From IMG/VR virus record IMGVR_UViG_3300003322_001466, positions 1 through 41,260 of that record: a DNA stretch of 41,260 nt; one strand, written 5' to 3'. Below the pieces are notes generated by a model that was given only the letters and a program-made list of their open reading frames with translations, did no database searches and was not told the origin of the DNA. Position numbers and translations under genes: made by a program. Positions within the stretch are counted from its first letter, which is position 1; each line of letters begins with the position of its first letter. Shown piece by piece: positions 162 to 41,058 of this stretch. This DNA is from a virus.

Positions 162-168
162 AGGGACG
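150..168. repeat. inverted repeat around the -10 box
   Basis: CGTCCCT at 150-156 and AGGGACG at 162-168 are perfect 7-bp inverted repeats separated by ATACT. The dyad covers the -10 box, so it may be a DNA-level operator rather than an mRNA hairpin. The right arm also supplies the only SD-like AGGGA before the adaptor start. Confidence 0.5.
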
Positions 169-169
169 T

Positions 170-898: not shown

Positions 899-902
899 GC
901 CC

Positions 903-2915: not shown

Positions 2916-2930
2916 GAAAGGAAACCCTCC

Positions 2931-3476: not shown

Positions 3477-3488
3477 CCTTTTCCACCA

Positions 3489-4985: not shown

Positions 4986-4986
4986 C

Positions 4987-10407: not shown

Positions 10408-11382
10408 ATGGCTTACATCGGAAACGATACGACCCAATTGGACATCACGGTACGCAGTTACTACGACCGCCTTGCCCTTTTGACCCTCCAAAACAACGTG
10501 GTGCTCCCCCAATTCGCCGAAAAGAAGCCCCTTCCCGGAAAGTCCGGTAAGACGATCTTCTGGAACCGCTACAATAACTTCGCCGAGGTGACTACCAACC
10601 TCTCCGAAGGCGTGCCGCCTACCGTTATCCAAATGTCCGCCGTCGCCGTGAGCGCTACCCTGATCCAAAAGGGTTTCGTTACCGAGATCTCCGACATCTT
10701 GGACATGACCAACATCAACGACAACGGCAAGGCCGCCGTCGAGCGTTTGGCTTACCAAGCGGCAATCTCCATTGACGGTTCCATCCGCCGTGAGATTTAC
10801 AACACGGCCAGCAACTCCGCCACCGCCATTTCCGCCAACGTCTTCAACCAGTTCGGTGACGGTTCCTACGGCAACGTCAGCGCCATGCCTTCCACTTCCG
10901 CCCGCATGACCACCGCCGTTATCCGCAACGCCGTGGTGAAGCTGAAGACCAACGCCGTTCCTCCCCTGGAAGGCAACGACTACATCCTGGTAGTATCCCC
11001 CCAGACCGCCAGCCGCATCCGCCAGGACAGCGTATGGCAGAACGCCAACCAGTACTCCGGCGTCTACGCCGAGAAGATCTTTAACGGCGAGGTAGGACGC
11101 ATCGAAGGCGCCCGGGTCATTGAAACCCCCCAGATAACCTTCTTCGCTTCCGGCGGTGCCGCCTTCGTTTCCACCAATGACACCTCGGTATACTTCTCCA
11201 TCCTCTTGGGCAAGTCTTCCATCGGCATGACCGAGATGAACGGCGGCCTGGAAACCTACACCGTGGCCGGTGCCGACAAGAGCGACCCGCTCAACCAGAA
11301 GACTTCTTACGGCTGGAAAATAACCTACGTTCCCAAGGTTCTCAATTACAGCTGCGCAGTAGTGATAGCCACTACGGACTGA
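10408..11382 (+). CDS. major capsid protein, N4-gp56 family
   Basis: A 324-residue HK97-fold shell protein of the N4-gp56 family. Recognisable segments are the N-terminal arm plus spine helix (LALLTLQNNVVLPQFAEKKP, then LPGKSGKTIFWNRYNNF), the LSEGVPPTV turn, and FVTEISDILDMT...AAVERLAYQAAISIDGSIRRE. The A-domain strands YILVVSPQTASRIRQD and the terminal TSYGWKITYVPKVLNYSCAV also fit. Length and order (scaffold before, terminator after) are as expected. It is closely followed by an intrinsic terminator, so high-level virion transcription may end here. Confidence 0.9.
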   Translation: MAYIGNDTTQLDITVRSYYDRLALLTLQNNVVLPQFAEKKPLPGKSGKTIFWNRYNNFAEVTTNLSEGVPPTVIQMSAVAVSATLIQKGFVTEISDILDMTNINDNGKAAVERLAYQAAISIDGSIRREIYNTASNSATAISANVFNQFGDGSYGNVSAMPSTSARMTTAVIRNAVVKLKTNAVPPLEGNDYILVVSPQTASRIRQDSVWQNANQYSGVYAEKIFNGEVGRIEGARVIETPQITFFASGGAAFVSTNDTSVYFSILLGKSSIGMTEMNGGLETYTVAGADKSDPLNQKTSYGWKITYVPKVLNYSCAVVIATTD

Positions 11383-12162: not shown

Positions 12163-13782
12163 ATGGCGCAAGACAAGAAGTTCTCGGTAATAGTCCCCAT
12201 TTACCGGGACGGGTGGAAGGACCTGCCTTCCCTCCTCTTCCATTTGCGGGAACAGGACTATGCCAACTGGGAGCTGGTAACCGCTTACAATTCACCCGAT
12301 TCCGATACCCAGGAAAAGACCAGAAAAACCTTGAAGAAGGAAAAGCAGAAGTCGTACCTTGAGGTAGACGCCGGCTATGATCCCGACCTCAAGGCCGGCA
12401 ACCATTGCGCTGCCTTCAACGCCGGGGCCGAACGTGCCACCGGCGACTTCCTGCTGTTCCTGGATCCGGACATCGAACTGTTTCCCGGCGTTCTCCGCGA
12501 ATACAAGGACGCCTTCGATGCCAACCCTGAGGTTTCCTTCGTTTACGGCGATTACGACCTGAAGGGCGGATTGGGCCGTATCCTTGGTCGGCGCTACGAT
12601 GAGTACGAACTGCGCTGCGCCAACTACGTTTCCGGCGCCTTTCCCATCCGCCGCGAAGCGTTCAAAGGGTGGGATCCTTCCGTAAAGTCGCTCCAGGACT
12701 GGGACATGTGGCTTTCCGCCGTGGACGGCGGCGCTACGGGCCTTTACATCGGCCGTCCCTGCTTCCAGGCTGACGCCCCCAAGGACGGCGGCATTTCCTC
12801 GGAAGGTGCTGCCAACTGGGAAGAACGGTATTCGTACGTTAGGACGAAACACGGTTTTCCGCCTTCGAAGACCGTTTACACCAGCCTGGGCGCCCCGGCC
12901 CACGCCACCAACGCCGCCAAGGTGGTCGGTGCCGACAGCCGCGTGCTCAGCAACTTGCACACCTTCAAGCCCAACTCCTACGAAAACGTGGTCCTGATCG
13001 GCTTTTACAGCGCTTCGCCTGATCCGTCCGACCCCATGATGGCGGTGCGCCAGCACGTATCCCTCTTTTACAAGGGCGGAAACCTCAAGTCGGAACCCGT
13101 ACCGGGAAAGAAGGTCATCCACTGGGTAGGCACCGACATCTTCATGCTCCAGCACAAGGTTTCCTGGATGGGAGAGCGCTTTATCTCCAAGATGCTTACC
13201 GCGCCCGACCTCGGGGTTATCCACCTGGCCGAATGCGAAGAGACGCAAAGAGAGCTCCAGGAGCTAGGAATAGAATCTCAGGTCGTTCCCTTGCCACCCA
13301 AGCGCCTCTTTGAGCCTCTACCGTTGCCGGAAGAGTTCGCGGTCGGCATTTACGTCAACCCTACCCAAGACATGTACTTCGAAGACCTCATGTACGAATT
13401 GGCCGACGCCATGCCTGACGTCAAGTTCAGGTTCTTCGGCGACCGCCATCCCAAGATGGAAGGCAACAAGGAGTGGGTAGGCTTCGTGGATATGGGGGAG
13501 TTCCTTAAGACCGTTTCCGCCGTGGTCCGCATTACCGTCCATGACGGCCTTCCCTTGGGACCGGTGGAAGCCATGATGGCCGGCCGCCAAGTCATCGCCA
13601 CCCACCCGCTAAAGTACGCCGTGACGCACGAAAAGAAGAACGGCGAGCCGGACCTGGCAACCCTTATCGAACAGGTACGGGCGCTCCAGTCTTCTTCCTT
13701 GGATCCGGAAGCGCCTTCCTATTGGAAGCGCACCCTGTCCCACGAAGCCTACCGGGAAGCGATGGACCGGATCCTCTCATGA
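12163..13782 (+). CDS. two-domain glycosyltransferase (GT2 plus GT-B-like domain)
   Basis: A 539-residue protein with two parts. Residues 1-240 are a GT-A family 2 domain: strand FSVIVPIYRDGWKDLPSLLF, the donor-site LFLDPDIELFPG (DxD-like DPD), and SLQDWDMWLS near the acceptor site. Residues about 270-539 look like a GT-B/GT4-type domain (KVIHWVGTDIFMLQ and, later, VRITVHDGLPLGPVEAMMAG with the GPVEAMM donor-loop motif). It would transfer sugars, either onto the virion or to modify host surface glycans. The start ATG at 12163 lacks an SD (CTAACGACGATGC precedes it). It overlaps the next glycosyltransferase by 4 nt. Confidence 0.85.
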   Translation: MAQDKKFSVIVPIYRDGWKDLPSLLFHLREQDYANWELVTAYNSPDSDTQEKTRKTLKKEKQKSYLEVDAGYDPDLKAGNHCAAFNAGAERATGDFLLFLDPDIELFPGVLREYKDAFDANPEVSFVYGDYDLKGGLGRILGRRYDEYELRCANYVSGAFPIRREAFKGWDPSVKSLQDWDMWLSAVDGGATGLYIGRPCFQADAPKDGGISSEGAANWEERYSYVRTKHGFPPSKTVYTSLGAPAHATNAAKVVGADSRVLSNLHTFKPNSYENVVLIGFYSASPDPSDPMMAVRQHVSLFYKGGNLKSEPVPGKKVIHWVGTDIFMLQHKVSWMGERFISKMLTAPDLGVIHLAECEETQRELQELGIESQVVPLPPKRLFEPLPLPEEFAVGIYVNPTQDMYFEDLMYELADAMPDVKFRFFGDRHPKMEGNKEWVGFVDMGEFLKTVSAVVRITVHDGLPLGPVEAMMAGRQVIATHPLKYAVTHEKKNGEPDLATLIEQVRALQSSSLDPEAPSYWKRTLSHEAYREAMDRILS

Positions 13783-14447
13783 CGGTTTCCATCGTTATGC
13801 CTTGCTATAACGCCGCCCCCTGGCTGGCGCGGGCGATCAGTTCCTGCCTGAACCAGACCCTTCCTCCCTTGGAGCTGATCGTGGTTGATGACGCCTCAAC
13901 CGATTCTTCCCCCAAGGTCATGGAGTGGGCCGCCACTACCTTTCCTTCGGTCAAGGTGGTGCGCCTGCCGGAGAACGGAGGACCGGCGGCGGCCATGAAC
14001 GCCGGCATCCGGGAAGCCAAAGGCGACATCATCTGCTTCGCCGCCGCCGATGACCTCCAGCAGGCAGGCAAGGTCCAGGTACTAGTGGAATCGTTCGAGA
14101 AAGGCGTGGACTTTTGCTACACCGGCTACTACCACGCGACCGTCAAGGGTGAAATCTTCGAGGAGGTCCACCCCAAGCCGCTGAACCGGGAAAACATCCT
14201 GGCCAACGACTGCGCCGCCGGGGAAGCCTTGGCCGCCAAGAGGGAAGTGTTCCTCCGCATCCCCTTCCGGGAGAACCTGCGGGTAAACGAGGACATGGCC
14301 ATGCTCATCGATCTGTACAAGGCCAAGCTTAAGTATGCCCTGGTGGACATACCCACCTTCCGCTACCGTTTGCTTCCCAGCGGGATTTCGTACTCGAAAA
14401 AGGCGGAGGTTGACCGCATTACCCAAGAACTAAGCACGGAACTATGA
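13779..14447 (+). CDS. glycosyltransferase family 2
   Basis: A 222-residue GT-A protein with textbook motifs: VSIVMPCYNAAPWLARAISS at the N-terminus, LELIVVDDASTDSS (nucleotide-binding Asp), NGGPAAAMNAGIREAKGDII and the FAAADD metal-binding DxD-like site at about 86-91. Late RENLRVNEDMAML gives the ED catalytic-base position. ATG at 13779 overlaps the previous stop (ATGA coupling). Middle gene of a three-gene set. Confidence 0.9.
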   Translation: MTVSIVMPCYNAAPWLARAISSCLNQTLPPLELIVVDDASTDSSPKVMEWAATTFPSVKVVRLPENGGPAAAMNAGIREAKGDIICFAAADDLQQAGKVQVLVESFEKGVDFCYTGYYHATVKGEIFEEVHPKPLNRENILANDCAAGEALAAKREVFLRIPFRENLRVNEDMAMLIDLYKAKLKYALVDIPTFRYRLLPSGISYSKKAEVDRITQELSTEL

Positions 14448-15481
14448 CCTGGGATAAGAAACGAAAGATCAGCATCTGGGGCATGTCCAACCAAGACACC
14501 GCCGTTTACCAGTACCGCATCATCCAACCCTTGCAAGGGATCGCCAAGCAACGTTTCGCCACCGTCCACCACTTGCCGTTCTTCGGCCAGCACGCCCGCC
14601 ACCTGACCTCGCCGGAGTTCCGGGAATACCAGGCGCTCGAAGGAAAGTGGGCCGACGTGCTCTTTACCACCTTGGGTTCCGACCGCCACTATCTGGCCCT
14701 GATCCTGGCCCTTAAAGAGCGCTACGGGCTGAAGCTGGTGGTAGACCTGGACGACGACATCCTAGCCACCTACCTGGAACCGAACAACCCGGCGTACTCC
14801 GCCTACGTGTCCGGTGAGGGGAAGCATGCCGAATACGCCCAACTCTGCCTCCAGCAAGCCGACTTGGTAACCGTTTCTACCGATTACCTGAAGCGCAAGT
14901 ACGCTCCCCACAACGCAAACATCCTGGTAGTTCCCAACTGCCCGGACCCTTCCCTCTTTGCGCCGTCCAAACAGGAAGGACCGGTTACCATCGGTTATGC
15001 CGGCTCCGGCAGCCACCAGAAGGACTGGGAAATGGTTGAGCCGGTACTGCGCAAGCTCAAGGAAGAAAAAGGAGTCAAAATAAAGGTACTGGGTCCCATG
15101 GTGACCGCCATCGCCGATGAGCAAGTGAGTTGGGTGGAAGCCTTGGAGTACCCGAAGGCCCTTTCCGACCTCGGCATTTCCATTGGCGTCGCTCCCCTCA
15201 AGGATTCCGCCATGAGCCGAGGGAAAAGCAACCTGCGTTGGCTGGAGTACTCCATGCTCAAGGTGCCCACGGTCGCCAGCGACACGGTTCCGTTCAGGGG
15301 CATCGACAATATATTCCTCGTTTCGGAACCGGAAGATTGGGAGCGGCAATTGGCGTACCTGGTAGAAAGCCCGGAAGCCAGGAAATCTCTAGGTGAAGCC
15401 GCCTACGCCGAGGCCTTGACCAAATTCTCCCAGGAAGCGGTATCGCGCGACCTCTTTTCCTCCTTCAAGGACCTCTTCTAA
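14444..15481 (+). CDS. GT-B glycosyltransferase (GT4-like)
   Basis: A 345-residue protein of the phage/bacterial GT4-like type. The N-terminal domain has SIWGMSNQDTAVYQYRIIQP and LKLVVDLDDDILATYLEP. The C-terminal domain has VTIGYAGSGSHQKDWEMVEP, SIGVAPLKDSAMSRGKSNLR and WLEYSMLKVPTVASD, which form the donor nucleotide-sugar site. ATGA overlap with the previous GT2 gene. The three glycosyltransferases would use sugars from the host or from the phage pathway at 36.6-41.1 kb. The target is not known. Confidence 0.85.
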   Translation: MTWDKKRKISIWGMSNQDTAVYQYRIIQPLQGIAKQRFATVHHLPFFGQHARHLTSPEFREYQALEGKWADVLFTTLGSDRHYLALILALKERYGLKLVVDLDDDILATYLEPNNPAYSAYVSGEGKHAEYAQLCLQQADLVTVSTDYLKRKYAPHNANILVVPNCPDPSLFAPSKQEGPVTIGYAGSGSHQKDWEMVEPVLRKLKEEKGVKIKVLGPMVTAIADEQVSWVEALEYPKALSDLGISIGVAPLKDSAMSRGKSNLRWLEYSMLKVPTVASDTVPFRGIDNIFLVSEPEDWERQLAYLVESPEARKSLGEAAYAEALTKFSQEAVSRDLFSSFKDLF

Positions 15482-25945: not shown

Positions 25946-26135
25946 GCTTCTCTCCCAGGATTATGCCGAAGTTGAGGCTTCCGTCCCATTCGAATCCGAT
26001 TACTTCGTGCTTTTCCATGCACTTGCGCATAAAGTCCCTGACCTGCGGATCGATGCGGTAATAGGCGGTACCTTTGGAAGCGGCAACCGGCAGGTTGATA
26101 TCGATGGCGATGAGCGGCTTGTCTTCGGTAATCAC
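25938..26135 (-). CDS. unknown small alpha/beta protein
   Basis: A 65-residue protein (KPLIAIDINLPVAASKGTAY, FMRKCMEKHEVIGFEWDGSL). ATGA overlap with the AAA+ gene upstream, suggesting they are made together. Not recognised. Confidence 0.6.
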   Translation of the reverse strand: MITEDKPLIAIDINLPVAASKGTAYYRIDPQVRDFMRKCMEKHEVIGFEWDGSLNFGIILGEKHG

Positions 26136-27613
26136 TTCGCTCCTTTCGCCTTGCTCTTGGCCTTTTCCTCGGCCCTGCGCATGATGTCGGACGATACCGA
26201 TTGCTGCTCCACGGTAAGGTTGCCGGACCCCATGCCGAGGTCAGGTCGTCCGCCAGCCAGCCGTGGCAGCTTGGCTTGCTGCTCGTACGCGGCTTGGAAC
26301 CCGTTCAGGCTCTCAACTTCCTTCTCGATGGCGGCCTTGAAGCACGCCATGTCGATGGTGTCCATCTTCCTGAAGGCGGCTTGGCGGGCGGCGTTCAGGA
26401 CGGCGTTCTTGATGTTGCCGCCGGCGATGGGATAGGAAGCCAAGGCCTTGAAGTCCACGTCCTTGGAAAGGGGCGCCTTTTCGGGGACCAAGCGCCGCCA
26501 AATGGCTTCCCGCTGCGTTTCGTCCGGAAAGGAGAATTCGATCTTGGCGCTGACTCTCCGCTCGAAGGCTGGATCCATGCGGCCGAGGCGGTTAGTGGTG
26601 AATATTACTATCCCAGTATAGTGTTCCAGGGACGTCAGTAAAGCGTTGATCTGAGCACCCAGGATCATTCCCACTTCGTTGCGGTCGGCAATGAGGGAAT
26701 CGCACTCATCGAACATCAGCACTTGGTTCTTCTTCTGGGCCTCTTCGAAGAATGCCTTGATGGCCCGTTCCGCCCCGCCCGGTTCTGAGGATTGGATCTC
26801 GCCGGAGGAAACCATCTTGAAGGTACGGCCCAGCTCGTCGGCGATAGCCTGGCCCATGAGGGTCTTGCCGGTACCCGGTACGCCGTAGAAGAGCAGGGAA
26901 ACCGCGGTGCCCTTTTCGAATACCTCGCCGAATCCCCATTCCTCGAAGATCTTGTCGGTGTGTTCCACCTGGGAAACGGCGGCGCGGATCAGGTCCTTCT
27001 TGTCTTCCGGCATGACGACCGAATCCATGGTAAGGACTACCTTCGCCTTACTTTTCCGGTTTGGTTCGGCGAACGAGTACCATGAATCGGAATAAACGTC
27101 ACTGGTAACCGTCATGTTATGGCTGTCATAGTGAACGGTAGAACCGTCATGATCCATCACGTCCACGTCAATAAGGTTGAACTTTACCCGTACTAATAAC
27201 AGGTGGGAAGGGTAGCTAAGCGCGTAAGCACTACCAAATTGACCTGTTGGGGGATATTTTTCTGTCACTACGTCGTAAATAGTTCCCACGACTGTATAAC
27301 CGGATTCTGCGAAGAACATGGTTATTTTCTTACCTTCCCAACCAAGCAGGGGTAACTGAGTCACCTCTTTTAGCGGGCGTCTGTCCTTTTTGTCTATCTT
27401 TGGCTCGTATGATGCCTTTGCCATCGTCTTGTTGTTAGTTGTGGGAGCCGAATACGCCGTTGCGGTCGTAGTAACCGTAGGAGAATAATGAGCGGACGCG
27501 AAAGGGTTTTGACCACTCAGTGCGTTCTTTATTTTCTGAAGTGCTGCGGCATTAGCGGCGTTAATCGAATGCGTTGAAAGGGAGTTTAGGTTGTTATCTC
27601 CTAAGATAGCCAT
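26132..27613 (-). CDS. AAA+ ATPase with unusual N-terminal domain
   Basis: A 493-residue protein. The AAA+ core has Walker A GVPGTGKT (244-251), Walker B VLMFDE (298-303), sensor 1 IFTTN (Asn about 341), FERR arginine region (about 350-353) and a sensor-2-like GGNIKNAV. This is the classical FtsH/CDC48-type clade. Residues about 65-230 (beta-rich, RRPLKEVTQLPLLGWEGKKI, KVVLTMDSVVMPEDKKD) are not recognised and may be the substrate-binding part. AGGGAG lies 5 nt upstream of the ATG at 27613. A second in-frame ATG at 27424 (MAKASYEP) is preceded by AACTAACAACAAGACG, a leader seen at other genes, so two isoforms are possible. It probably remodels a protein or DNA complex early in infection. Confidence 0.85.
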   Translation of the reverse strand: MAILGDNNLNSLSTHSINAANAAALQKIKNALSGQNPFASAHYSPTVTTTATAYSAPTTNNKTMAKASYEPKIDKKDRRPLKEVTQLPLLGWEGKKITMFFAESGYTVVGTIYDVVTEKYPPTGQFGSAYALSYPSHLLLVRVKFNLIDVDVMDHDGSTVHYDSHNMTVTSDVYSDSWYSFAEPNRKSKAKVVLTMDSVVMPEDKKDLIRAAVSQVEHTDKIFEEWGFGEVFEKGTAVSLLFYGVPGTGKTLMGQAIADELGRTFKMVSSGEIQSSEPGGAERAIKAFFEEAQKKNQVLMFDECDSLIADRNEVGMILGAQINALLTSLEHYTGIVIFTTNRLGRMDPAFERRVSAKIEFSFPDETQREAIWRRLVPEKAPLSKDVDFKALASYPIAGGNIKNAVLNAARQAAFRKMDTIDMACFKAAIEKEVESLNGFQAAYEQQAKLPRLAGGRPDLGMGSGNLTVEQQSVSSDIMRRAEEKAKSKAKGAK

Positions 27614-28533: not shown

Positions 28534-29310
28534 TCAGGAAATGTCGGTTATGTTCTTGTAGTTTCCCTTGGTAGTAACGTTCGCCTCGATGGTGCCTTCC
28601 TGGACCTTGGGGAAGAGCTTTTCGTCGAACACGCTCATCCAACCCCGGTCGGTCTGGACCTTGAGGTACGGTTCGCCGGAGCTCGTCTTTTTCCTCTCCA
28701 CGGCGAAGACCCGCAACTGGGCGTAGCCGGGAGGAGGCAGCTGGTCCGGTTCGTCGGTCCAGTGGGCTTCCGGCTCATGGCCGTAGTCCCCGTCCGCTAT
28801 GGCCTCGGACGCTGCTTTCAAGGCCGTTCCTTGGGCTTTTTGGGGGGAAGCCGGCTGTTGGTACCTGTTAGGTGCCTGGGCGGCTTCCTGCTCGTTCTCA
28901 GGGTCGTCCCCGGTGGGAATGAGGAAGCTGCTGGTAAGGACGTACTTCACGGCGCCGGTGATCGCCTTGTAGAGGCCCTTGTCGCCGGCGTCCTGGCCCT
29001 GGCCGCAAAAGGTGCCTTCCATGGTTGAGCCGTCGTCCACGTCCACGAAGGAATAGTGGGCCGTTATGGTGGTGGTAAGCTTGTCCAACCCCTTGGCGTC
29101 CTTGCCGTAGGTAACTTCCTGGTTGGTGATTTCAAGCTGGAACAGGATGCCGTGCTCGACCAGCAAGGGCTGGATGGCCCGCTTGATGGCGTATTCGGAC
29201 GCGTATTCGTAGTGTTGGAAGTCGTTGGTCTTGTCCTTGGCGATGGTGCCGACCTTTCCCATGACGGCAGCCATCTTCCCGTAGATGCCGGGTACCTTCG
29301 GTTCGGTCAT
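28534..29310 (-). CDS. erf: ERF-family single-strand annealing protein
   Basis: A 258-residue protein of the ERF (essential recombination function) superfamily of phage annealases. The N-terminal domain is diagnostic: IYGKMAAVMGKVGTIAKDKT, then NDFQHYEYASEYAIKRAIQP and LLVEHGILFQLE. GDKGLYKAITGAVKYVLTSS follows, with the lysine/tyrosine cluster, and ends near FLIPTGDDPE. The C-terminal third is Pro/Gln-rich with a small beta end. It promotes annealing of complementary single strands, probably for genome circularisation or recombination-dependent replication. ATGA coupling with the gene upstream. Confidence 0.85.
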   Translation of the reverse strand: MTEPKVPGIYGKMAAVMGKVGTIAKDKTNDFQHYEYASEYAIKRAIQPLLVEHGILFQLEITNQEVTYGKDAKGLDKLTTTITAHYSFVDVDDGSTMEGTFCGQGQDAGDKGLYKAITGAVKYVLTSSFLIPTGDDPENEQEAAQAPNRYQQPASPQKAQGTALKAASEAIADGDYGHEPEAHWTDEPDQLPPPGYAQLRVFAVERKKTSSGEPYLKVQTDRGWMSVFDEKLFPKVQEGTIEANVTTKGNYKNITDIS

Positions 29311-30131: not shown

Positions 30132-30164
30132 ATGGACGAAGAAGAAAAAGAAAGGGAGAGAACG

Positions 30165-30311
30165 ATGGACCAAGACAAGCAGAGGATCGTCACGATGCTC
30201 TACATGATAGACTGGACGGTAACGTCCGAACAGGAAGCCGCCAAACAGATAGGCTGCAGCGTTTCCCGGCTCAGGGAGATCCAGGCCGAACTTGACGGAG
30301 ATCACGACTAG
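30165..30311 (+). CDS. small HTH protein, first gene of rightward early unit
   Basis: A 48-residue protein from ATG 30165 (MDQDKQRIVTMLYMIDWTVT, then SEQEAAKQIGCSVSRLREIQ). The region EQEAAKQIGCSVSRLREIQA looks like a compact helix-turn-helix. AAAGGGAG 7 nt before 30165 favours this start; an in-frame ATG at 30132 would add 11 charged residues. It is divergent from the KGG gene across the operator region, a cI/cro-like arrangement. The next promoter (30292) lies in its 3' end. Confidence 0.6.
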   Translation: MDQDKQRIVTMLYMIDWTVTSEQEAAKQIGCSVSRLREIQAELDGDHD

Positions 30312-30320
30312 CAACATTAT
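30292..30320 (+). promoter_or_regulatory. candidate promoter for the tRNA-like array
   Basis: TTGACG at 30292-30297, 17 bases, CATTAT at 30315-30320. Predicted start about 30327, some 34 bases before the first tRNA-like element. Confidence 0.5.
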
Positions 30321-30360: not shown

Positions 30361-30459
30361 GCCTGTTGGGCGGACGGACCGCAAGGAAAAGTGCTCAGGC
30401 TTTCCTTCCGCATCACGAACAATTATGCGGTAAGCCCGGTTCGACTCCGGGAACAGGCA
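30361..30459 (+). ncRNA. tRNA-like element 1
   Basis: Acceptor stem GCCTGTT (30361-30367) with AACAGGC (30452-30458). D arm GCGG-ACGGA-CCGC. T arm CCCGG-TTCGACT-CCGGG (30435-30451) joined to the acceptor without a gap, as in tRNA. The 52 nt between D and T arms form AGGAA...TTCCT with a 13-nt loop and CCGCAT...ATGCGG with an 11-nt loop; no 5-bp/7-nt anticodon arm is seen. No encoded CCA. Could be a tRNA with an intron or a tRNA mimic. Confidence 0.6.
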
Positions 30460-30468
30460 CTAAAACAA

Positions 30469-30568
30469 GCTGGAGAGGCGAAAGGATCGCGGCAAGACGG
30501 AGAAAGTGCGCCGGAAAAGGCTACTAGTCCAAGCCCCGGCAATATCAGTTCGAATCTGATCTCCAGCG
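30469..30568 (+). ncRNA. tRNA-like element 2
   Basis: Acceptor GCTGGAG (30469-30475) with CTCCAGC (30561-30567). D arm GCGA-AAGGA-TCGC whose 5-nt loop still keeps A14, GG and A21 equivalents. T arm ATCAG-TTCGAAT-CTGAT. Between D and T arms lie a purine-rich stretch (GGCAAGACGGAGAAAGTGC) and a long hairpin GCCGG...GGCT-ACTAGTCCA-AGCC-CCGGC. No canonical anticodon arm. Confidence 0.6.
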
Positions 30569-30574
30569 CAATAT

Positions 30575-30676
30575 CCCAACGAGGCGAGTGGATCGCAAGC
30601 GGAGGATCAAGAAGGTTTTGGTACTTTTTCCCTCACCTTGGCGTACCAAATCCCAGTTCGATTCTGGGCGTTGGGG
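30575..30676 (+). ncRNA. tRNA-like element 3
   Basis: Acceptor CCCAACG (30575-30581) with CGTTGGG (30669-30675). D arm GCGA-GTGGA-TCGC, T arm CCCAG-TTCGATT-CTGGG. Between D and T arms lie purine-rich AAGCGGAGGATCAAGAAGG and the hairpin TTTGGTAC...GTACCAAA with an 18-nt loop. Same plan as element 2 with unrelated sequence, i.e. structure is kept while sequence varies. Confidence 0.6.
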
Positions 30677-30683
30677 CCTTAAA

Positions 30684-30765
30684 GCGGCAGTTGGCGTAAT
30701 GCGGAGTGGTACCAAGTCCCTTAAACAAGGTTGCCCTAGCGCAAGTTCGAATCTTGCCTGCCGCT
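30684..30765 (+). ncRNA. tRNA-like element 4 (shorter)
   Basis: Acceptor GCGGCAG (30684-30690) with CTGCCGC (30758-30764), extended outward by AAA/TTT. T arm GCAAG-TTCGAAT-CTTGC. At 82 nt this one has the size of a type II tRNA, but the D region is atypical and the middle offers only CCTT-AAAC-AAGG, so an anticodon arm is not clear. The most tRNA-like of the four by length. Confidence 0.5.
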
Positions 30766-30785
30766 TTGAGAGCATTTGACAACCA

Positions 30786-30894
30786 GTTCCCTCCAAGAAG
30801 CGGCGGCGGGCGGAGAACCGCTACGGTGACCCGGGAAGAAATAGTTAGCTCCGGCTGCAAGGCTACAAACCCTTGCCCGCTTCTTGGAGGGAAC
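30786..30894 (+). ncRNA. structured RNA with 18-bp closing stem
   Basis: GTTCCCTCCAAGAAGCGG (30786-30803) pairs perfectly with 30877-30894. Inside are GCGG-AGAA-CCGC (30810-30821) and GCAAGG-CTACAAAC-CCTTGC (30857-30876). The latter abuts the closing stem with no gap, as a T arm abuts an acceptor stem, but lacks TTCGA. The 3' strand hides a GGAGGG. Not recognised as a known RNA or riboswitch. Confidence 0.6.
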
Positions 30895-30936
30895 TTACAG
30901 GCATAACCCATACCGATGGTAGAGATAGGAGACAAC

Positions 30937-31056: not shown

Positions 31057-31074
31057 GACATGAATGTCGTTACC
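31051..31074 (+). repeat. strong hairpin at 5' end of structured RNA
   Basis: GGTAATGACA-TGAA-TGTCGTTACC, a near-perfect 10-bp stem. Its 3' strand CGTTACC can instead pair with GGTAACG at 31162-31168, so two folds are mutually exclusive. Confidence 0.5.
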
Positions 31075-31443
31075 GGCGCGTTGCGCGGGACGGTGGGGCG
31101 CTGAACAGGCTTGCATAGCCGCCACGCTCCAGCTATGCCCGTCCCGCGGAGCGCACCGAAAGGTAACGTTCCAAAAACTGGACCCCTTGAAGGAAAACCG
31201 TACCGGTACCGTTCGCCCCGTTTGTAAGTACCAGACCCATTCGGGGGTACCGGACCGGTTCCGGGGCACAGGGTTTGGGGAGGGTGTGGCCCACACTGCT
31301 TATTAAAGAGCCCGCCGACTTGTCCCCATTGGGTCGGCGCCCCGGAACCGGGAACCTCGGGGGAGCGGGGCGAATAGCCAATAAGCCCTCAGTTCCTTCT
31401 TAGGAGGGAATTGTTCCACAACCTCCCCGGAGGGGACCGGAAC
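31062..31443 (+). ncRNA. large helix-rich RNA of about 380 nt
   Basis: No credible gene here, but dense complementary pairs. CGTTACC/GGTAACG (31068-31074/31162-31168) encloses GCGGGACG/CGTCCCGC (31085-31092/31140-31147) and GCATAGC/GCTATGC (31113-31119/31132-31138), whose loop may form a pseudoknot (GGGGCG 31095-31100 with CGCTCC 31125-31130). TTCGCCCCG/CGGGGCGAA (31212-31220/31366-31374) encloses a 13-bp helix 31255-31267/31339-31351, itself enclosing GTGTG/CACAC and GCCGAC/GTCGGC, and a local hairpin 31228-31250. The 3' end has TTCCTTC-TTAG-GAGGGAA (near 31391) and a hairpin at 31413-31443. Position beside tRNA-like RNAs in a phage recalls GOLLD/ROOL-type ornate RNAs, but no family match is claimed. 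It could also be a long 5' leader of the Acb2-like gene. Confidence 0.55.
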
Positions 31444-34582: not shown

Positions 34583-34942
34583 ATGGCATCCAAGAAGGGA
34601 CAAACCAAAGAAGATATCGCCAGGCTCAAGTTGGAGTTCCTTGACTACTACAAGGACGTGCCCATCCAGAAGTACGCGGCCCAGTGGATCGGGAGGGACC
34701 AGACCACCGTTTCAGATTGGAAGGCGGCCGACCCTGATTTCGCCAAGGCGATCCAGAAGATGGAAGCGGCCTTCATTAGTAAGAACCTCCTGAAGACGAA
34801 GGCGGAGTTCAAATTGGAGCGTATAATCAAGTCCGAATTCGCCCAAAGGACGGAACTGAGCGGGCCGGACGGCAAACCCATACCCATCTACGGAGGCTCC
34901 AGTGCCATTCAGGGACACGACGGCGACCAGGAAGGTCTTTGA
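34583..34942 (+). CDS. terS: terminase small subunit
   Basis: A 119-residue protein. The N-terminal DNA-binding part is HTH-like (MASKKGQTKEDIARLKLEFL, then YKDVPIQKYAAQWIGRDQTT and VSDWKAADPDFAKAIQKMEA). A helical oligomerisation segment (FISKNLLKTKAEFKLERIIK) follows. It recognises the packaging site and loads the large subunit. The 41-nt overlap with the large-subunit gene means its last residues are read in another frame. Confidence 0.75.
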   Translation: MASKKGQTKEDIARLKLEFLDYYKDVPIQKYAAQWIGRDQTTVSDWKAADPDFAKAIQKMEAAFISKNLLKTKAEFKLERIIKSEFAQRTELSGPDGKPIPIYGGSSAIQGHDGDQEGL

Positions 34943-36089
34943 CCTCAAGAAGCGCGTCAGGGCGGTAGCCGGCGGTACCAGCGCTTCCAAGACCATTTCC
35001 ATATTGGTGTGGTGCATCGATTACGCCCAGACCGTCAAGGACGAACTGGTTACCGTGGTCTCCGAAAGCTTCCCCCACTTGGACGGCGGGGCCATCCGGG
35101 ACTTCAAGGCCATCATGAAAGCCCAGGGGTACTGGGAAGATGCCAGGTGGCACGGCACCAGGCACGAATACACGTTCCCCTTTACCAACAGCGTCATTGA
35201 GTTCACCTCCGTTGACACCTACGGCAAGGCCCACGGTCCCAGGCGCGACGTTTTGTTCATCAACGAGTGCAACAACCTTTCCTGGGCCATCGCCGACCAG
35301 CTCATAACCCGTACCCGCAAGGTGGTATGGCTTGACTGGAACCCGTCGGAGGAGTTTTGGTTCTACACCGAGCTGCTGCCCCACCGGGACGACGTGGACT
35401 TCATTACCCTTACCTACAAGGACAACGAAGCCTTGGACGAGGTGACGGTCAAGGAAATAGAAAGCCACAAGGGCAACAAGAACTGGTGGCGGGTATACGG
35501 CGAAGGCCAGCTGGGAGAAGTGGAAGGCCGCATCTATACCGGTTGGCAGGTCATAGACGAAGTCCCCCATGAGGCCCGGCTTGAGCGGCGCGGCCTTGAT
35601 TTCGGCTATAGCCACGACCCGGCGGCCGTGGTGGCCTGCTACTACTACAACGGCGGATGGATCGTGGACGAGGAAATCTACCAAAAGGGACTCCTCAACA
35701 AGCCGCTTGCCGATTCCATCCTGAACGGAACCGAGCCTCAGTTGCTCATCAAGGCGGATTCGGCCGAACCCAAGTCCATAGACGAACTGAAGCTCTACGG
35801 CCTGAACGTCATGCCGGTGGAAAAGGGCCAGGATTCGGTCAGGAAGGGCATTGAAACCGTCCAGGAGCAGCGCATCAGCGTTACCCGCCGATCTTACAAC
35901 CTGCTGAAAGAATACCGCAAGTACATGTGGAAAACCGACCGGGACGGCAACATTATCAGGACGCCGGAGGACGGCATGGACCACGCCCTGGACGCGCTCA
36001 GGTACGCCCTGGAAGGCGTTGCGTACCGATCCGAAGAAGAGGTAGAATTGCCTGAGTACGAGCCGGTATTCGGCCGGACCGGCTACTAA
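34902..36089 (+). CDS. terL: terminase large subunit
   Basis: A 395-residue packaging motor. ATPase: Walker A GGTSASKT (24-31), Walker B VLFINE (117-122), coupling-motif region VVWLDWNPS. Nuclease (RNase H-like): RRGLDFGYSHDPAAVVA with Asp at about 233, IKADSAEPKSIDELK and MDHALDALRYAL near the C-terminus. It translocates DNA into the procapsid and cuts concatemers. It starts inside terS, which secures a fixed ratio of the two products. Confidence 0.92.
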   Translation: MPFRDTTATRKVFDLKKRVRAVAGGTSASKTISILVWCIDYAQTVKDELVTVVSESFPHLDGGAIRDFKAIMKAQGYWEDARWHGTRHEYTFPFTNSVIEFTSVDTYGKAHGPRRDVLFINECNNLSWAIADQLITRTRKVVWLDWNPSEEFWFYTELLPHRDDVDFITLTYKDNEALDEVTVKEIESHKGNKNWWRVYGEGQLGEVEGRIYTGWQVIDEVPHEARLERRGLDFGYSHDPAAVVACYYYNGGWIVDEEIYQKGLLNKPLADSILNGTEPQLLIKADSAEPKSIDELKLYGLNVMPVEKGQDSVRKGIETVQEQRISVTRRSYNLLKEYRKYMWKTDRDGNIIRTPEDGMDHALDALRYALEGVAYRSEEEVELPEYEPVFGRTGY

Positions 36090-36096
36090 CCATCCT

Positions 36097-36591
36097 ATGG
36101 CATACGATCCTTACCTTTACTGGGAAGACCGGGCGCAGACGTGGGTCCGGGAAAACTTTTTCACCGCTTCCGAGTGGGAGCATATCAGGCCCTACGTCAG
36201 CCAGTCCTGGAAGGTGCTGGAAGTAGGTTGCGGCGATGGCAGGTGGGCTCCTTACTTCTGGAACTATGCCGGCTGCGACATCTCCCACCGCCTGGTCGCC
36301 CACTGCAACATCAATCGTCCCGGCCACAAGTTCTTCCAACTGAACCTGGAAACCGCCTATTCCCTGCCCGCCGTCATGGACACGGTCTTCAGTTACACCT
36401 GCCTGGAGCACGTGCGGCCGGAAGCGATGGGCCACGTCGCCGACCTGTTCGAAGGCAAGCGGCTCCTGCTGGTGGAACCTGCCGGCGAGTCCGGCGTGGA
36501 ACACTGCTTCAAGCACGATTACGAACGCATCCTCGGGGTTACCAAGCTCAAGGACTTCGGCCAGCTGACCGTTTACGGGAGGGACGTATGA
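36097..36591 (+). CDS. class I SAM-dependent methyltransferase
   Basis: A 164-residue methyltransferase: VLEVGCGDGRWAPYFW (SAM motif I) at about 40-55, YAGCDISHRLVAHCNI (motif II), TVFSYTCLEHVRPEAMGHVA (post-motif, like small-molecule MTs) and GKRLLLVEPAGESG. Size and neighbours suggest a sugar or other small molecule as target rather than DNA. ATGA overlap with the SDR gene. Confidence 0.8.
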   Translation: MAYDPYLYWEDRAQTWVRENFFTASEWEHIRPYVSQSWKVLEVGCGDGRWAPYFWNYAGCDISHRLVAHCNINRPGHKFFQLNLETAYSLPAVMDTVFSYTCLEHVRPEAMGHVADLFEGKRLLLVEPAGESGVEHCFKHDYERILGVTKLKDFGQLTVYGRDV

Positions 36592-37367
36592 AGGTCCTGG
36601 TAACCGGTGCTTTCGGAAGCCTGGGCTCCGCCTTCACCAAGTTTTTCCTGGACCGGGGCGACAGCGTGGTCGGCCTGGACAACAACGAATGGGCGGTGGC
36701 AAGCTACCCGGAGCACCCGAACCTGAAGAAGATGCTTCGGGATTTCTCGAACGTCAAGGGCGACTATGACCTCATAGTGCACTGCGCCGCCTACAAGCAC
36801 GTGGACCTCATAGAATCCAACCGGGAAGAAGCCAGGTTCAACAACGTGGACAAGACCCGGTTCCTCTACGCGAAAGTCACGGGCCAAGTACTGTTCGTGT
36901 CCACCGACAAGGCGGTTGACCCCTGCTCCTTTTACGGCCTGACCAAGCAGGAGGGCGAGCAGCTGACCCTGGAGCGCGGCGGCGTGGTCCTGCGCCTGGG
37001 CAACATCCTGTCCAGCCGGGGATCGGTTATCCCCAAGTGGGAAGACGCCTTGGAAAAGGGAGAACCACTCCTGGTAACCGATTTCCGCATGAAGCGCTGG
37101 CTCATTTCCGCCGAAGAAGCGGTGGCAAAGGCGATGTACTTGTTACCTCGGGCGAAGGCGGGAGATACTATCATCCCCTCCCTTGGCGATCCGGTGTCCC
37201 TGCGCGAGATGCTGGACCGGGTGCTCACCGCCCACGGCAAGCCCCTTGACTATCCCACGAAGGAGATAGGGCTCAGGCCGGGAGAGCGGTTGGAGGAAAA
37301 GCTCTTGCGGGATGACGAGGAAATCATTTACGATGGTAAAAACGGCATAATCGCACGCAGACGATGA
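36588..37367 (+). CDS. nucleotide-sugar 4,6-dehydratase-like SDR (PseB/CapD type)
   Basis: A 259-residue extended SDR. MKVLVTGAFGSLGSAFTKFF has the GxxGxxG Rossmann motif. CAAYKHVDLIESNREEARFN and NVDKTRFLYAKVTGQVLFVS match the AAYKHV..MExN pattern of UDP-GlcNAc 4,6-dehydratases of the PseB/FlaA1/CapD group. STDKAVDPCSFYGLTKQEGE holds the S-T-D-K and YxxxK active site. Its usual products are 4-keto-6-deoxy sugars, substrates for the aminotransferase encoded nearby. It is about 70 residues shorter than typical PseB. ATGA coupled on both sides. Confidence 0.85.
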   Translation: MKVLVTGAFGSLGSAFTKFFLDRGDSVVGLDNNEWAVASYPEHPNLKKMLRDFSNVKGDYDLIVHCAAYKHVDLIESNREEARFNNVDKTRFLYAKVTGQVLFVSTDKAVDPCSFYGLTKQEGEQLTLERGGVVLRLGNILSSRGSVIPKWEDALEKGEPLLVTDFRMKRWLISAEEAVAKAMYLLPRAKAGDTIIPSLGDPVSLREMLDRVLTAHGKPLDYPTKEIGLRPGERLEEKLLRDDEEIIYDGKNGIIARRR

Positions 37368-37627
37368 ACGCGGACGACCTGAAGGAGCGCTTGAAAGGCA
37401 ATTGGCAACGTACCCTGACCGGGCAGATACCCGAGGAATCCGTGAGCTTGGATACGCTCGCGGAAATTTTGGTTTCCCTGAACGAACGGGTAAGCGCCTT
37501 GGAAGGCACGCCGGTTACTCCCGCGGCCAAGGCGGAGCGAAAGCTGAAACCTGGCGTCACGGTACTGCCCAAAGGGTCCTACATGTTACATGGAAAATTC
37601 ATAAGCAAATCGGAGGCATTCGAATGA
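37364..37627 (+). CDS. small coiled-coil protein in sugar cluster
   Basis: An 87-residue protein (SLDTLAEILVSLNERVSALE is a leucine-zipper-like helix) with a basic C-terminal extension. ATGA overlaps both sides. No family recognised; perhaps a subunit or linker for a neighbouring enzyme or for virion attachment. Confidence 0.55.
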   Translation: MNADDLKERLKGNWQRTLTGQIPEESVSLDTLAEILVSLNERVSALEGTPVTPAAKAERKLKPGVTVLPKGSYMLHGKFISKSEAFE

Positions 37628-38478
37628 GAGTACTGGTAACCGGTGACAAAGGATTCGTCGGCGCGGAAACGGTGCGTTTGCTCAAGGAAAAAGGGCATGA
37701 AGTGGTCGGATACGACATCATGGATGGCAACGATATCCGTGACAAGGAAAACTTGTTCTATACGGTCGGTAGGATGCGCGTGGACCGCATTCTCCACCTA
37801 GCAGCCGTTGCCCGTTTTGATGAGGCGGACGCCAACCCCATCCTTACCCATGAAACGAACGTGGTAGGTACCATGAACGTGGTAAGCGTGGCGGAACGGC
37901 ACCACATCCCCTTGGTCTTCGCCTCCACCGGCTCCGCCTACATGCCGATCAAGCTGGATCCGCCCATCACCGAATCCTTCCCCATCCAAGGAAACAGCGT
38001 TTACGGCTGCTCCAAGGCCCTGGCCGACAAGTACGTCCAAGCGGCCGAGGTGCCGTGGATCGTATTGCGCTACGCCCACCTCTATGGCGCCGAAAAGCGC
38101 TTCCACGGTCTGATCGGCGGGTTCGCCAGCCGCATCGAGCACGATTTGGAACCGGTCCTGTACGGGGGCAAGCAGTCCAACGACTTCTGCTACATCAAGG
38201 ATATCGCCCAGGCCAACCTCAAGGCCCTGGAAGCCTCCTGGGACAAGTGGAACCAGGCCTACAACATCGGCACCGGCGAGGAAATGAGCGCCGAGCAAGC
38301 CGGAAAGGCCGTCTGCGACGTACTCGGCTACACCGGCAAGATCCAAGTGAAGGAGCAGCGCTCCGTAGACGCCGAACGGTTCGTCTTCGATATCTCCAAG
38401 GCCAAAACCAAACTCGGCTACCAGCCGGAATACACCTTCAGGCAAGGACTGGAGGACATGTTCAAGGAGCAGCAGTGA
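37624..38478 (+). CDS. NAD-dependent nucleotide-sugar epimerase/dehydratase
   Basis: A 284-residue extended SDR of the GalE/RfbB type: MRVLVTGDKGFVGAETVRLL (GxxGxxG), ILHLAAVARFDEADANPILT, TNVVGTMNVVSVAE, FASTGSAYMP (Ser/Thr), GNSVYGCSKALADKYV (YxxxK). NDFCYIKDIAQANLKALE is the conserved D-x2-D/H late motif. It would epimerise or dehydrate an NDP-sugar. Second SDR in this set. Confidence 0.85.
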   Translation: MRVLVTGDKGFVGAETVRLLKEKGHEVVGYDIMDGNDIRDKENLFYTVGRMRVDRILHLAAVARFDEADANPILTHETNVVGTMNVVSVAERHHIPLVFASTGSAYMPIKLDPPITESFPIQGNSVYGCSKALADKYVQAAEVPWIVLRYAHLYGAEKRFHGLIGGFASRIEHDLEPVLYGGKQSNDFCYIKDIAQANLKALEASWDKWNQAYNIGTGEEMSAEQAGKAVCDVLGYTGKIQVKEQRSVDAERFVFDISKAKTKLGYQPEYTFRQGLEDMFKEQQ

Positions 38479-38771
38479 ACAAGGCTGAAGAAATGACGGG
38501 AAAAGGACTTCCTACTCTCGTTTACCTGGAATGGAGCGATTCTTCTTCCCGCTCCGGATGGGAGGACGAAGAGGAAATGCGCGAATTCGCCAGTTCTTCC
38601 AGTTACCTTGTACGCCAGGTCGGGTGGATCTATGAGGAAGACGATACCAAGCTGGTCCTTTACGGAAGGTACCACGATTGGGAGGTCGGTGAAGCCAAAG
38701 GGAGGCGCGAATACGGAAACTGCCAGTACATACCCAAGTCTTGGATAACCAGCAGAAAGGAGCTATCGTGA
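38475..38771 (+). CDS. unknown small protein in sugar cluster
   Basis: A 98-residue protein from GTG 38475, which overlaps the preceding stop and has AAGGAG six bases upstream. LPTLVYLEWSDSSSRSGWED and RQVGWIYEEDDTKLVLYGRY recall a small phage/bacterial protein family seen near nucleotide-sugar or replication genes, of unknown function. The next gene starts within its stop (GTGA). Confidence 0.6.
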   Translation: MNKAEEMTGKGLPTLVYLEWSDSSSRSGWEDEEEMREFASSSSYLVRQVGWIYEEDDTKLVLYGRYHDWEVGEAKGRREYGNCQYIPKSWITSRKELS

Positions 38772-39628
38772 GTGATTCTAAACGTATCTTGGTAGTAGGC
38801 GCAGGCGGCCCTGCCGGACTGGGCATGGCCCGTTGCCTATCCGTTCCTGAGCTCGGTTACGAGGTCTACGGCAAGGACGAATCCCGCTGGGGATCGCTCG
38901 CCATGGAAGTCCCCTTCGCTGTCCAACCCGATTCCACCTACAACCTCATCATGCCGGTCCCCGACCGGGCGGTACTTAGCTATTCCCAGTCCAGGATCGC
39001 CTTCCTGCCCCCTGCCTACCAGTTGGAACTGTGCCAGGACAAGGAACGCACGGCCCGGGTGCTGGACGACCTTGCCCCCAAGACGATCTGGGTCAGGGAT
39101 ACCAAGGGTGCCGGCGGATCGGGCGCGCAGATGGCAAGCGAATACCTGCCTGGCCGCAACTACTCCGTCGAATTGGTCTACAATAAGGGTGTGCTGCTTG
39201 CCTACTTCCAAAAGCGGCGCATCTCCTACCTGGTGAAGAAGACCGAGCACCTGGTTACCGCCTCAGGGTCCAGCGCGGTCAGCATCTGCGTGAACGACCC
39301 CGATCTCCTTTCCCGCGCCGTGGACGCCATAGGGCGGGTCTGCAAGGAGACCACCACGCAGGCGCACGGCTTCTACGGCATAGACTTCAAGGAAAGCGAA
39401 AAGGGCGAGCGGCTCATAACCGAAATCAACGCCGGCCGCCTGCTGACCGCTTCCTACTCCTATTTCTGGCTTACCGGTTGGAACCTGCCGGCGATAGGGG
39501 CCAGGGCCTATTTCGGCCAGGATCCCTTGGAGCTGCCAGATTACCCGGCAGGCTGCGGCGTCATCCGCCAGGCCGACATGGAGCCCAAGCTGTTCGGGCC
39601 GGAAGAAACGGAAGCGTGGGACTACTGA
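38768..39628 (+). CDS. ATP-grasp enzyme
   Basis: A 286-residue protein. The N-terminus has a PylC/carB-like Rossmann start (KRILVVGAGGPAGLGMARCL). The ATP-grasp core contains DTKGAGGSGAQMASEYLPGR and YSVELVYNKGVLLAYFQKRR. The metal-binding end is GFYGIDFKESEKGERLITEI followed by NAGR (D and E..N ligands). Such enzymes ligate a carboxylate to an amine and are common in capsule and amino-sugar loci. GTG start at 38768, coupled by GTGA. Substrate unknown. Confidence 0.7.
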   Translation: MSDSKRILVVGAGGPAGLGMARCLSVPELGYEVYGKDESRWGSLAMEVPFAVQPDSTYNLIMPVPDRAVLSYSQSRIAFLPPAYQLELCQDKERTARVLDDLAPKTIWVRDTKGAGGSGAQMASEYLPGRNYSVELVYNKGVLLAYFQKRRISYLVKKTEHLVTASGSSAVSICVNDPDLLSRAVDAIGRVCKETTTQAHGFYGIDFKESEKGERLITEINAGRLLTASYSYFWLTGWNLPAIGARAYFGQDPLELPDYPAGCGVIRQADMEPKLFGPEETEAWDY

Positions 39629-39906
39629 TGGCACGGATAGCGGTTGACTTCGACGGCGTGATATTCGACAAGGCGAAAGGAACCCTTATGCCGGGGTGCG
39701 TCAGGGCCCTCAGGAAGATGGCCGAAGGGAAAAACGAGATCACGGTATTTACCAACCGTCCCGATTACGACTACAGTACGGTAAAGGCCATCCTTGACGC
39801 CAACTATATCCCGTACGACCGCATCATCTGCGGCAAGCCGTCCTACGACCTGTTCATTGATGACCGGGTCGCCAGGTTCGAAGGATGGGACAAGGATTAC
39901 CTATGA
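39628..39906 (+). CDS. HAD-superfamily phosphatase-like protein
   Basis: A 92-residue mini-HAD: IAVDFDGVIFD (DxDGV motif I, nucleophile Asp), ITVFTNRP (motif II T/S), ICGKPSYDLFIDDRVARFEG (motif III Lys and motif IV DD). It lacks a cap domain. It could dephosphorylate a sugar phosphate in the pathway. One-base overlap with the ATP-grasp gene. Confidence 0.8.
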   Translation: MARIAVDFDGVIFDKAKGTLMPGCVRALRKMAEGKNEITVFTNRPDYDYSTVKAILDANYIPYDRIICGKPSYDLFIDDRVARFEGWDKDYL

Positions 39907-39922
39907 AACTGGAGGAACTTAC

Positions 39923-40096
39923 ATGATTCTTGAAAAGGCGCGTAAGGATACCGTCTGCTCCCAATGCGGAAAGGAAATCCCTGACTCTTCCGTGGTATGG
40001 GTGTGGTGGACGCCGAAAAGGTACTTGAAGCGGACCACCTGTTCCAGGGAATGCTATGAGAAAAAATATCTGAAAGGACTAAGAAAACGCCGATGA
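39923..40096 (+). CDS. small zinc-finger protein
   Basis: A 57-residue basic protein with C-x2-C and C-x3-C pairs (VCSQCGKEIPDSS, TTCSRECYEKKYLKGLRK), like a FLZ/MYM-type ribbon. GGAGG seven bases upstream of the ATG. Overlaps the aminotransferase start. Confidence 0.7.
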   Translation: MILEKARKDTVCSQCGKEIPDSSVVWVWWTPKRYLKRTTCSRECYEKKYLKGLRKRR

Positions 40097-41058
40097 ACGT
40101 CCCCTTTTCAAAGCCTGACCTCGGAGTGGAAGAGGCCGATGCCGTCACCCGGGTGCTGGCTTCAGGTTGGTTGGCGGCAGGCCCTGAGACGGAAGCCTTT
40201 GAGCGTGAGTTTTCCACATACATATCCCCACCTGGGGAAAACTACTACTGCATCTTTACCAATTCCTGCACCTCGGCGCTCAAGATGGCGTACAAACTGA
40301 CCAAAGAAGGCGGCCATACGGGAATTGAATACCCGTTAAACACTTTTTGCGCTACCTATTCCGCTGCTAACGAGATGGGACTAAATGCGTTATCGTATAC
40401 AGATACTGAGCGTAACGAGGACTTTGGTTACCCACGGGTTAACATGGCATACGGCGGCATCAAGGACGAAACCCCCTGCCTCATCGAAGACTCGGCCCAC
40501 CGGATAGAGCCCAACGACCCGCTGGTCGGCAAGATCCGCTGCTACAGCTTCTACGCCACCAAGAACATGACCACCGGAAGCGGCGGCATGTTCGTAACCG
40601 CAGACAAGGAGATCTATGAGCGAGCCAGACTCTACTGGAAGGACGGGCTTACCACCAGCACCGCTGATCGTCAGTCAGGACCAGTTGATTACGAGGTTAA
40701 GGCTATGGCAGGAGGATATGATGGCAACGACCTGGCCGCAGCTTTGGGCCGAGTTCAACTCCGGCGACTTCCTGATTTTACCGCCCGAAGGAATGCTATT
40801 GGAAAGCGGTATAACGAAGCCTTTGGGAGAGAGTGGCTGGGAAATCACCTATACTGCCTCGATCTCGGTTCGGTGGAATCCGTCCGAAGAGTAAGGAACG
40901 AGCTCTGGGAGGCAGGAATCGGTACCGGTTACCACTATCCCGGTACTGGCTGGACCTCAATTTCCTTGCCGGTCTACCCGGGACTTACGGATGAGCAGCA
41001 GGATTACGTCATCAACAAAACACTAGCGGCGATGGGAAAGGAAGGCAGTGGAATATGA
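40093..41058 (+). CDS. DegT/DnrJ/EryC1/StrS sugar aminotransferase
   Basis: A 321-residue fold-type I PLP enzyme: PFSKPDLGVEEADAVTRVLA, SGWLAAGPETEAFEREFS, FTNSCTSALKMAYKLT, IEDSAHRIEP (PLP-ring Asp), SFYATKNMTTGSGGMF with the Schiff-base Lys. The family aminates keto-sugars, so the likely substrate is the product of the 4,6-dehydratase-like enzyme upstream. Slightly shorter than the usual 360-380 residues. Codon usage between about 40300 and 40450 is more A/T-rich than that of its neighbours, hinting at recent acquisition. Confidence 0.88.
   Translation: MNVPFSKPDLGVEEADAVTRVLASGWLAAGPETEAFEREFSTYISPPGENYYCIFTNSCTSALKMAYKLTKEGGHTGIEYPLNTFCATYSAANEMGLNALSYTDTERNEDFGYPRVNMAYGGIKDETPCLIEDSAHRIEPNDPLVGKIRCYSFYATKNMTTGSGGMFVTADKEIYERARLYWKDGLTTSTADRQSGPVDYEVKAMAGGYDGNDLAAALGRVQLRRLPDFTARRNAIGKRYNEAFGREWLGNHLYCLDLGSVESVRRVRNELWEAGIGTGYHYPGTGWTSISLPVYPGLTDEQQDYVINKTLAAMGKEGSGI

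Follow-up and report, generated by a model that had tools for sequence, protein, structure and literature searches.

Tandem tRNA-like units with no canonical anticodon arm in a viral genome: putative tRNA mimics

The IMG/VR virus record IMGVR_UViG_3300003322_001466 (41,260 bp), analysed over its whole length and called the window here, carries an array of four RNA units at 30361-30765. They are very probably real tRNA-like RNAs, kept by selection, that have no canonical anticodon arm. The units are unusual and recurrent in kind, with partly similar known systems such as the species 1 RNA of phage T4, and their function is putative. Mimicry of tRNA is the best reading of the array, and from it we infer that the units serve as decoys for host factors that target tRNA. 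The units and their parts are as follows.

30361-30458, plus strand: unit 1, acceptor stem GCCTGTT/AACAGGC, T arm CCCGG-TTCGACT-CCGGG
30370-30382, plus strand: D-like hairpin of unit 1, GCGG-ACGGA-CCGC
Within unit 1, plus strand: interior hairpins of 7 bp (AAGGAAA/TTTCCTT) and 6 bp (CCGCAT/ATGCGG)
30469-30567, plus strand: unit 2, acceptor stem GCTGGAG/CTCCAGC, T arm ATCAG-TTCGAAT-CTGAT
30478-30490, plus strand: D-like hairpin of unit 2, GCGA-AAGGA-TCGC
Within unit 2, plus strand: interior of a purine-rich stretch, then a bulged hairpin (GCCGG..CCGGC)
30575-30675, plus strand: unit 3, acceptor stem CCCAACG/CGTTGGG, T arm CCCAG-TTCGATT-CTGGG
30584-30596, plus strand: D-like hairpin of unit 3, GCGA-GTGGA-TCGC
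30684-30764, plus strand: unit 4, the short one (82 nt), acceptor stem GCGGCAG/CTGCCGC, T arm GCAAG-TTCGAAT-CTTGC

Scanning the window with a descriptor (7-bp acceptor, 5-bp T stem, TTCRANY loop) gave exactly four full-score matches, all on the plus strand, which are units 1-4. Their acceptor and T-stem pairs are Watson-Crick throughout (48/48), and the T stem is flush with the acceptor. Sixty random windows matched to it in dinucleotide composition yielded no such unit, against four in 400 nt here. Unit 1 has an eighth acceptor pair (T30360-A30459), and the acceptor of unit 4 is lengthened by three A-T pairs (30681-30683 with 30765-30767). Two bases after the acceptor, units 1-3 each have a 4-bp hairpin whose 5-nt loop reads NNGGA (ACGGA, AAGGA, GTGGA); the chance of a 5-nt-loop hairpin carrying GG is about 0.006 per unit. 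Unit 4, with no D-like hairpin bearing GG, only partly resembles the other three. Encoded CCA is absent from all four. A preliminary description, made from the sequence alone, had reported the four units with abutting T arms and TTCGANT loops, three D arms whose minimal loops keep GG and A, lengths of 99-102 nt with one of 82, and the missing CCA, and all of these observations are confirmed.

The same description took differing stems with kept pairing as a sign of selection on structure, and the pair changes agree with it. In an alignment of units 1-3, three paralogues of one genome, 10 of 16 pairs are changed on both sides and 100% of cells are paired; since the structure was read from these same rows, this shows maintained pairing and not cross-species conservation. 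None of 500 shuffles equalled units 1-3 in double-sided changes, and sliding the partners by 1-3 columns abolishes the signal.

Searches among phage records found no sequence homologues of the four units. A D-hairpin/T-loop pattern matched 47 times in viral contigs, never in a window-like unit; the true matches are an ordinary tRNA array in contig L045. No homologue was found by scanning 47 terminase relatives, together with further sequence of their contigs, for units, and the neighbouring HNH, AAA and ERF genes led to no relatives. The sole bacterial-genome relative found for the phage's terminase lies in a Blastocatellia (Acidobacteriota) bin, and a covariance model search of 199 genomes of that bin's phylum, run without a positive control, returned none. 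Alongside the irregular tRNAs of Acidobacteria discussed below, the terminase relative is suggestive only.

Contig L045 has further features of its own, and its repeated units look like tandem Y RNAs.

L045 (IMGVR_UViG_3300050821_009975), 1-5555: phage contig carrying many tRNAs in a large array
L045, 234-1808, minus strand: gene for a Ro60/TROVE protein (Pfam TROVE 3.5e-41, vWA_Ro60 9.7e-67)
L045: sub-threshold YrlA match; several repeated units that start GAGCCC and end near CTACGTTC

Arrays of other phages are like the window array in architecture, without sequence homology. Three T loops spaced as in the window occur in at least 120 viral contigs, and among the matches listed there are 92 distinct acceptor/T units without an ARAGORN call, the window's four included. 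Some of the 92 will be ordinary tRNAs that ARAGORN overlooked, and the set holds at least two sorts: true tRNAs with an insert, and units without an Rfam match. Contigs L201, L228, L151 and L206 have units with neither ARAGORN nor Rfam calls. In L201, three 100-nt units have nearly identical interiors, and their acceptor and T stems are all different yet paired; a middle stem changes on both sides, from CCTTAC/GTAAGG to CCTCGT/ACGAGG. In L206, a regulator lies just 5' of the units. A GCAAG-CGGAG motif shared by units 2 and 3 and L228 was dropped for having too few examples.

The long irregular units of L174, L159, L186 and L195 exceed the Rfam tRNA cut-off and are true tRNAs with an insert of about 40 nt, so they were dropped as supporting cases. 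The insert, a hairpin and then a conserved ACAGCAA motif, occurs in phage tRNAs or tRNA-like units of several contigs and looks like a small intron-like element; for the L174 unit at 8727, the Rfam alignment places it in the anticodon loop. Separately, Leu-type tRNA frames occur in a number of contigs, several of them in one contig; they agree in acceptor, D arm and T arm, and their anticodon and variable regions are entirely different.

L174, 8727-8838, 8895-9012 and 9129-9245: units with the ~40-nt insert
L186, 2258-2818: units with the ~40-nt insert
L159, 1800-2354: units with the ~40-nt insert
L195, 1015-1493: units with the ~40-nt insert
L220, 627-745: unit with the ~40-nt insert
L247, 5778-6944, minus strand: Leu-type frames
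L278: Leu-type frames
L264, 12226: Leu-type frames
L217, 8491: Leu-type frames
L238, 9816: Leu-type frames

L151 is part of a Lacticaseibacillus phage, and BLAST with its locus found about 45 records from phages of the species L. casei, L. paracasei and L. rhamnosus. Eight regions were inspected (L283-L290: A2, R24.2, R3.3, LJ, T25, JNU_P10, phiAT3 and JNU_P9). A mini unit of 53-55 nt, made of an acceptor, one hairpin and a T arm with no D arm, is conserved in all eight. Its hairpin has a 5-bp stem and a 7-nt loop whose middle positions vary by phage (GCTGAGA, ACCGTGA, ACTGCGA, GCTGTGA). A second unit, in six of the eight regions, keeps the acceptor GCAACCG/CGGTTGC constant around a swapped interior (53, 57, 70 or 81 nt). 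The 81-nt version (LJ, T25 and JNU_P10) has the layout of the window units: the acceptor is followed after two bases by a 4-bp hairpin, here with a loop of 4 nt, and then by further hairpins and the T arm. The Lacticaseibacillus units (A2, LJ, T25, phiAT3, R3.3) are like the window's in having an acceptor and T arm with TTCGANT and a non-canonical interior, and often stand two per locus; they are shorter (53-81 nt in most), they have no sequence homology to the window units, and the A2 version is close to an ordinary tRNA. Deposited annotation at these loci gives 'hypothetical protein' or nothing. Both in L151 and in the other Lacticaseibacillus phages, these loci have the late regulator ArpU on one side and GcrA-like or terminase genes on the other.

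The array of the window lies at a divide near 30 kb, with minus-strand replication-type genes to the left and plus-strand genes leading towards the terminase to the right. It is 5' of the terminase genes and forms the first RNA-coding segment of the rightward block, which from its gene content is probably the late block. The surrounding features are as follows.

7517-9262: portal gene
10408-11382: capsid gene
26132-27613, minus strand: AAA ATPase gene
28534-29310, minus strand: ERF recombinase gene
30132-30311, plus strand: ORF for a small HTH-like protein of 59 aa, directly 5' of the array (HTH_Mga E 0.0065, below cut-off)
30292-30320, plus strand: sigma-70-like promoter candidate TTGACG-17-CATTAT, about 40 nt 5' of unit 1
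30785-30895, plus strand: multi-hairpin RNA closed by a strong, perfect inverted repeat of 19 bp, immediately 3' of unit 4 (z = -5.8)
34583-34942, rightward block: small terminase subunit gene
34902-36089, rightward block: large terminase subunit gene

The 59-aa ORF resembles the phage's own genes in codon usage. The promoter candidate is weak, matching at 9 of 12 positions with 0.7 such matches expected by chance in the scanned region. By codon usage the array stretch is non-coding: a 135-aa ORF across it has negative codon log-odds, and we ruled out a protein-coding reading on that ground. The structure at 30785-30895 possibly belongs to the array's non-coding transcript. An Rfam MIR904 match on the minus strand (30771-30910) was below cut-off and reflects merely the long inverted repeat. 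Two further strongly folded elements, likewise closed by long inverted repeats, lie in the same non-coding stretch 3' of the array, at 31074-31158 (repeat of 20 bp, z = -4.6) and 31255-31351 (13 bp, z = -2.1). Elsewhere in the window, 36141-41058 and 12163-15481 hold two nucleotide-sugar epimerases, a DegT-type aminotransferase and glycosyltransferases, a gene set that suggests glycan synthesis or modification.

The position common to the window, L151, L206 and the Lacticaseibacillus loci is a lead to a common function, not proof of one. It also accords with a rival explanation, which we consider unlikely, that the units are punctuation for processing or stability in a late-transcript leader, offering cut sites to RNase P and RNase Z and having no function in trans. 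The array opens the rightward block, the units of L151 and the Lacticaseibacillus phages stand between a late regulator and terminase, strongly folded RNA comes after the array, and the acceptor and T sequences are free provided that pairing holds. However, four consecutive units exceed the need of a cut site, three of them retain the GG hairpin, and L201 conserves the interior.

The interior sequence is different in every unit. Predicted folds comprise two hairpins in unit 1, one bulged hairpin in unit 2 and little structure in unit 4; in unit 3, several other folds come close in energy to the long hairpin and compete with it. A purine-rich stretch of 19-24 nt followed by a long hairpin had been proposed to replace the anticodon. 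This stands for units 2 and 3, with the hairpin of unit 3 present yet rivalled, but in unit 1 the stretch forms its own 7-bp hairpin. As replacement of the anticodon would have it, units 1 and 4 contain no 5-bp stem closing a 7-nt loop that has U33; units 2 and 3 have weak, mismatched ones.

ARAGORN in normal mode calls no tRNA in the array, and Rfam at curated cut-offs gives no match there; the tRNA model RF00005 stays below cut-off, its best match (20.1 bits) beginning inside unit 2, offset from the unit. With introns allowed and thresholds lowered, ARAGORN places tRNAs on units 1-3, their inserts being 12, 28 and 25 nt long. Shuffled interiors receive intron-mode calls in 76-100% of cases at these relaxed thresholds, so the calls lend the intron reading no support. 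At the 95% setting, units 2 and 3 themselves receive no call, although 17% of the shuffles of unit 2 and 83% of those of unit 3 do; unit 4 is the sole unit called there more readily than its own shuffles (13% pass). The intron search therefore revealed no canonical tRNA beyond shuffled interiors in units 1-3, and we reject an intron-bearing tRNA for these three, with unit 4 at the strictest setting as the exception. Where tRNA mimics and tRNAs with inserts had been offered as alternatives, the pair changes and the comparable phage arrays favour mimicry, and the shuffle test does not support intron-bearing tRNAs.

These results also make it distinctly improbable that the units are highly diverged tRNAs that still decode, with odd anticodon arms or an unknown splicing step. 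Units of similar length in L174, L159, L186 and L195 are true tRNAs with the insert of about 40 nt, and a review (PMC7609411) describes irregular tRNAs, their cloverleafs unusual, that come from Acidobacteria and soil. Set against such precedents are the sub-threshold, offset Rfam match, the absence of the U33 arm from units 1 and 4, and intron-mode calls in units 1-3 no better than those in shuffled interiors.

The differing interiors could alternatively be inserts that pair with mRNAs, stabilised and matured by a tRNA shell, which would make the units tRNA-scaffolded small regulatory RNAs. Swapped interiors on a constant frame in the Lacticaseibacillus phages and in the Leu-type frames of L247 and L264 fit this idea, but the interiors are no more complementary to the genome of the phage itself than shuffles are, and we consider the idea very unlikely. 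Hardly credible is a decaying remnant of a former phage tRNA array: such arrays are common and lose members, and no intact tRNA remains here, but decay would be expected in all arms, and the acceptor and T pairs are intact despite their differing sequences.

Returning to mimicry, RNase P, RNase Z, the CCA-adding enzyme, T-loop modifiers and EF-Tu recognise the acceptor and T arm of tRNA. Perfect acceptor and T stems with the anticodon discarded fit a molecule that resembles tRNA to such proteins and need not decode. The array would be transcribed as one precursor, from which host RNase P and RNase Z, recognising the acceptor/T helix, would excise the units. The host CCA-adding enzyme would then finish their ends, as the units encode no CCA. 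The resulting stable, non-decoding RNAs may occupy tRNA-binding host factors, the likeliest targets being proteins that grip the acceptor, T arm or elbow, for example defence nucleases that attack tRNA or enzymes that mature it. We rate this mechanism as a whole, with non-decoding mimics matured by the host and acting on tRNA-binding factors, at about an even chance. Only tentatively do we extend it to phages of many hosts, in which a class of non-decoding tRNA mimics might have mostly escaped annotation. They would counter tRNA-targeting immunity as decoys or substrates for host factors that hold tRNA by its acceptor/T-arm face. Members of such a class would keep that face, have the anticodon or D arm substituted or lost, and often sit at the start of a late operon.

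The presence of tRNA genes in phages has long called for an explanation, and the usual answers are codon supply and the replacement of cleaved tRNAs. Units with the top half of a tRNA and no decoding cannot supply codons, which points to another use. Gene finders overlook such units because they require an anticodon arm. Since related units occur in cultured L. casei phages, the question of tRNA mimicry can be tested in ordinary dairy-phage systems.

Several known systems resemble the window units in part. The units have the 7-bp acceptor, 5-bp T stem and TTCRANY loop of canonical tRNA (RF00005), but not its anticodon arm of 5 bp and 7 nt with U33, a score at the cut-off or an ARAGORN call. 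The Rfam models for bacterial Y RNA (YrlA, RF02553) and tRNA-Sec (RF01852), proposed as checks in the preliminary description, do not match the array. Y RNA likewise mimics tRNA and has T- and D-like arms; unlike it, the window units have a terminal tRNA-like acceptor stem, and the ORFs of the window that were scanned include no Ro60/TROVE gene. Allo-tRNAs and tandem irregular tRNA-like genes are known from Acidobacteria and soil (Mukai et al. 2017, as reviewed in PMC7609411); some are not chargeable by E. coli enzymes and some have an extra hairpin near the acceptor. Allo-tRNAs combine an 8/4 or 9/3 acceptor branch with an anticodon, whereas all four units of the window have a 7/5 branch, lengthened by outer pairs in units 1 and 4, and no canonical arm. 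For the serine or alanine identity of allo-tRNAs, the units present no anticodon arm from which to read it. For an enzyme acting on the acceptor/T side without an anticodon arm, Cas12a3 provides a precedent (PMC12851939). T4 species 1 RNA (rnaC) is a known small stable RNA encoded beside the tRNA cluster of its phage. Its T arm is perfect (CCGGG-TTCGAAT-CCCGG), its acceptor stem resembles that of tRNA, and its middle forms a long hairpin. It differs from the window units in its length of 139 nt, its weaker, mismatched acceptor, its single copy and its place among ordinary tRNAs. No sequence similarity was seen between the two, and what they have in common is the T arm and tRNA-like ends.
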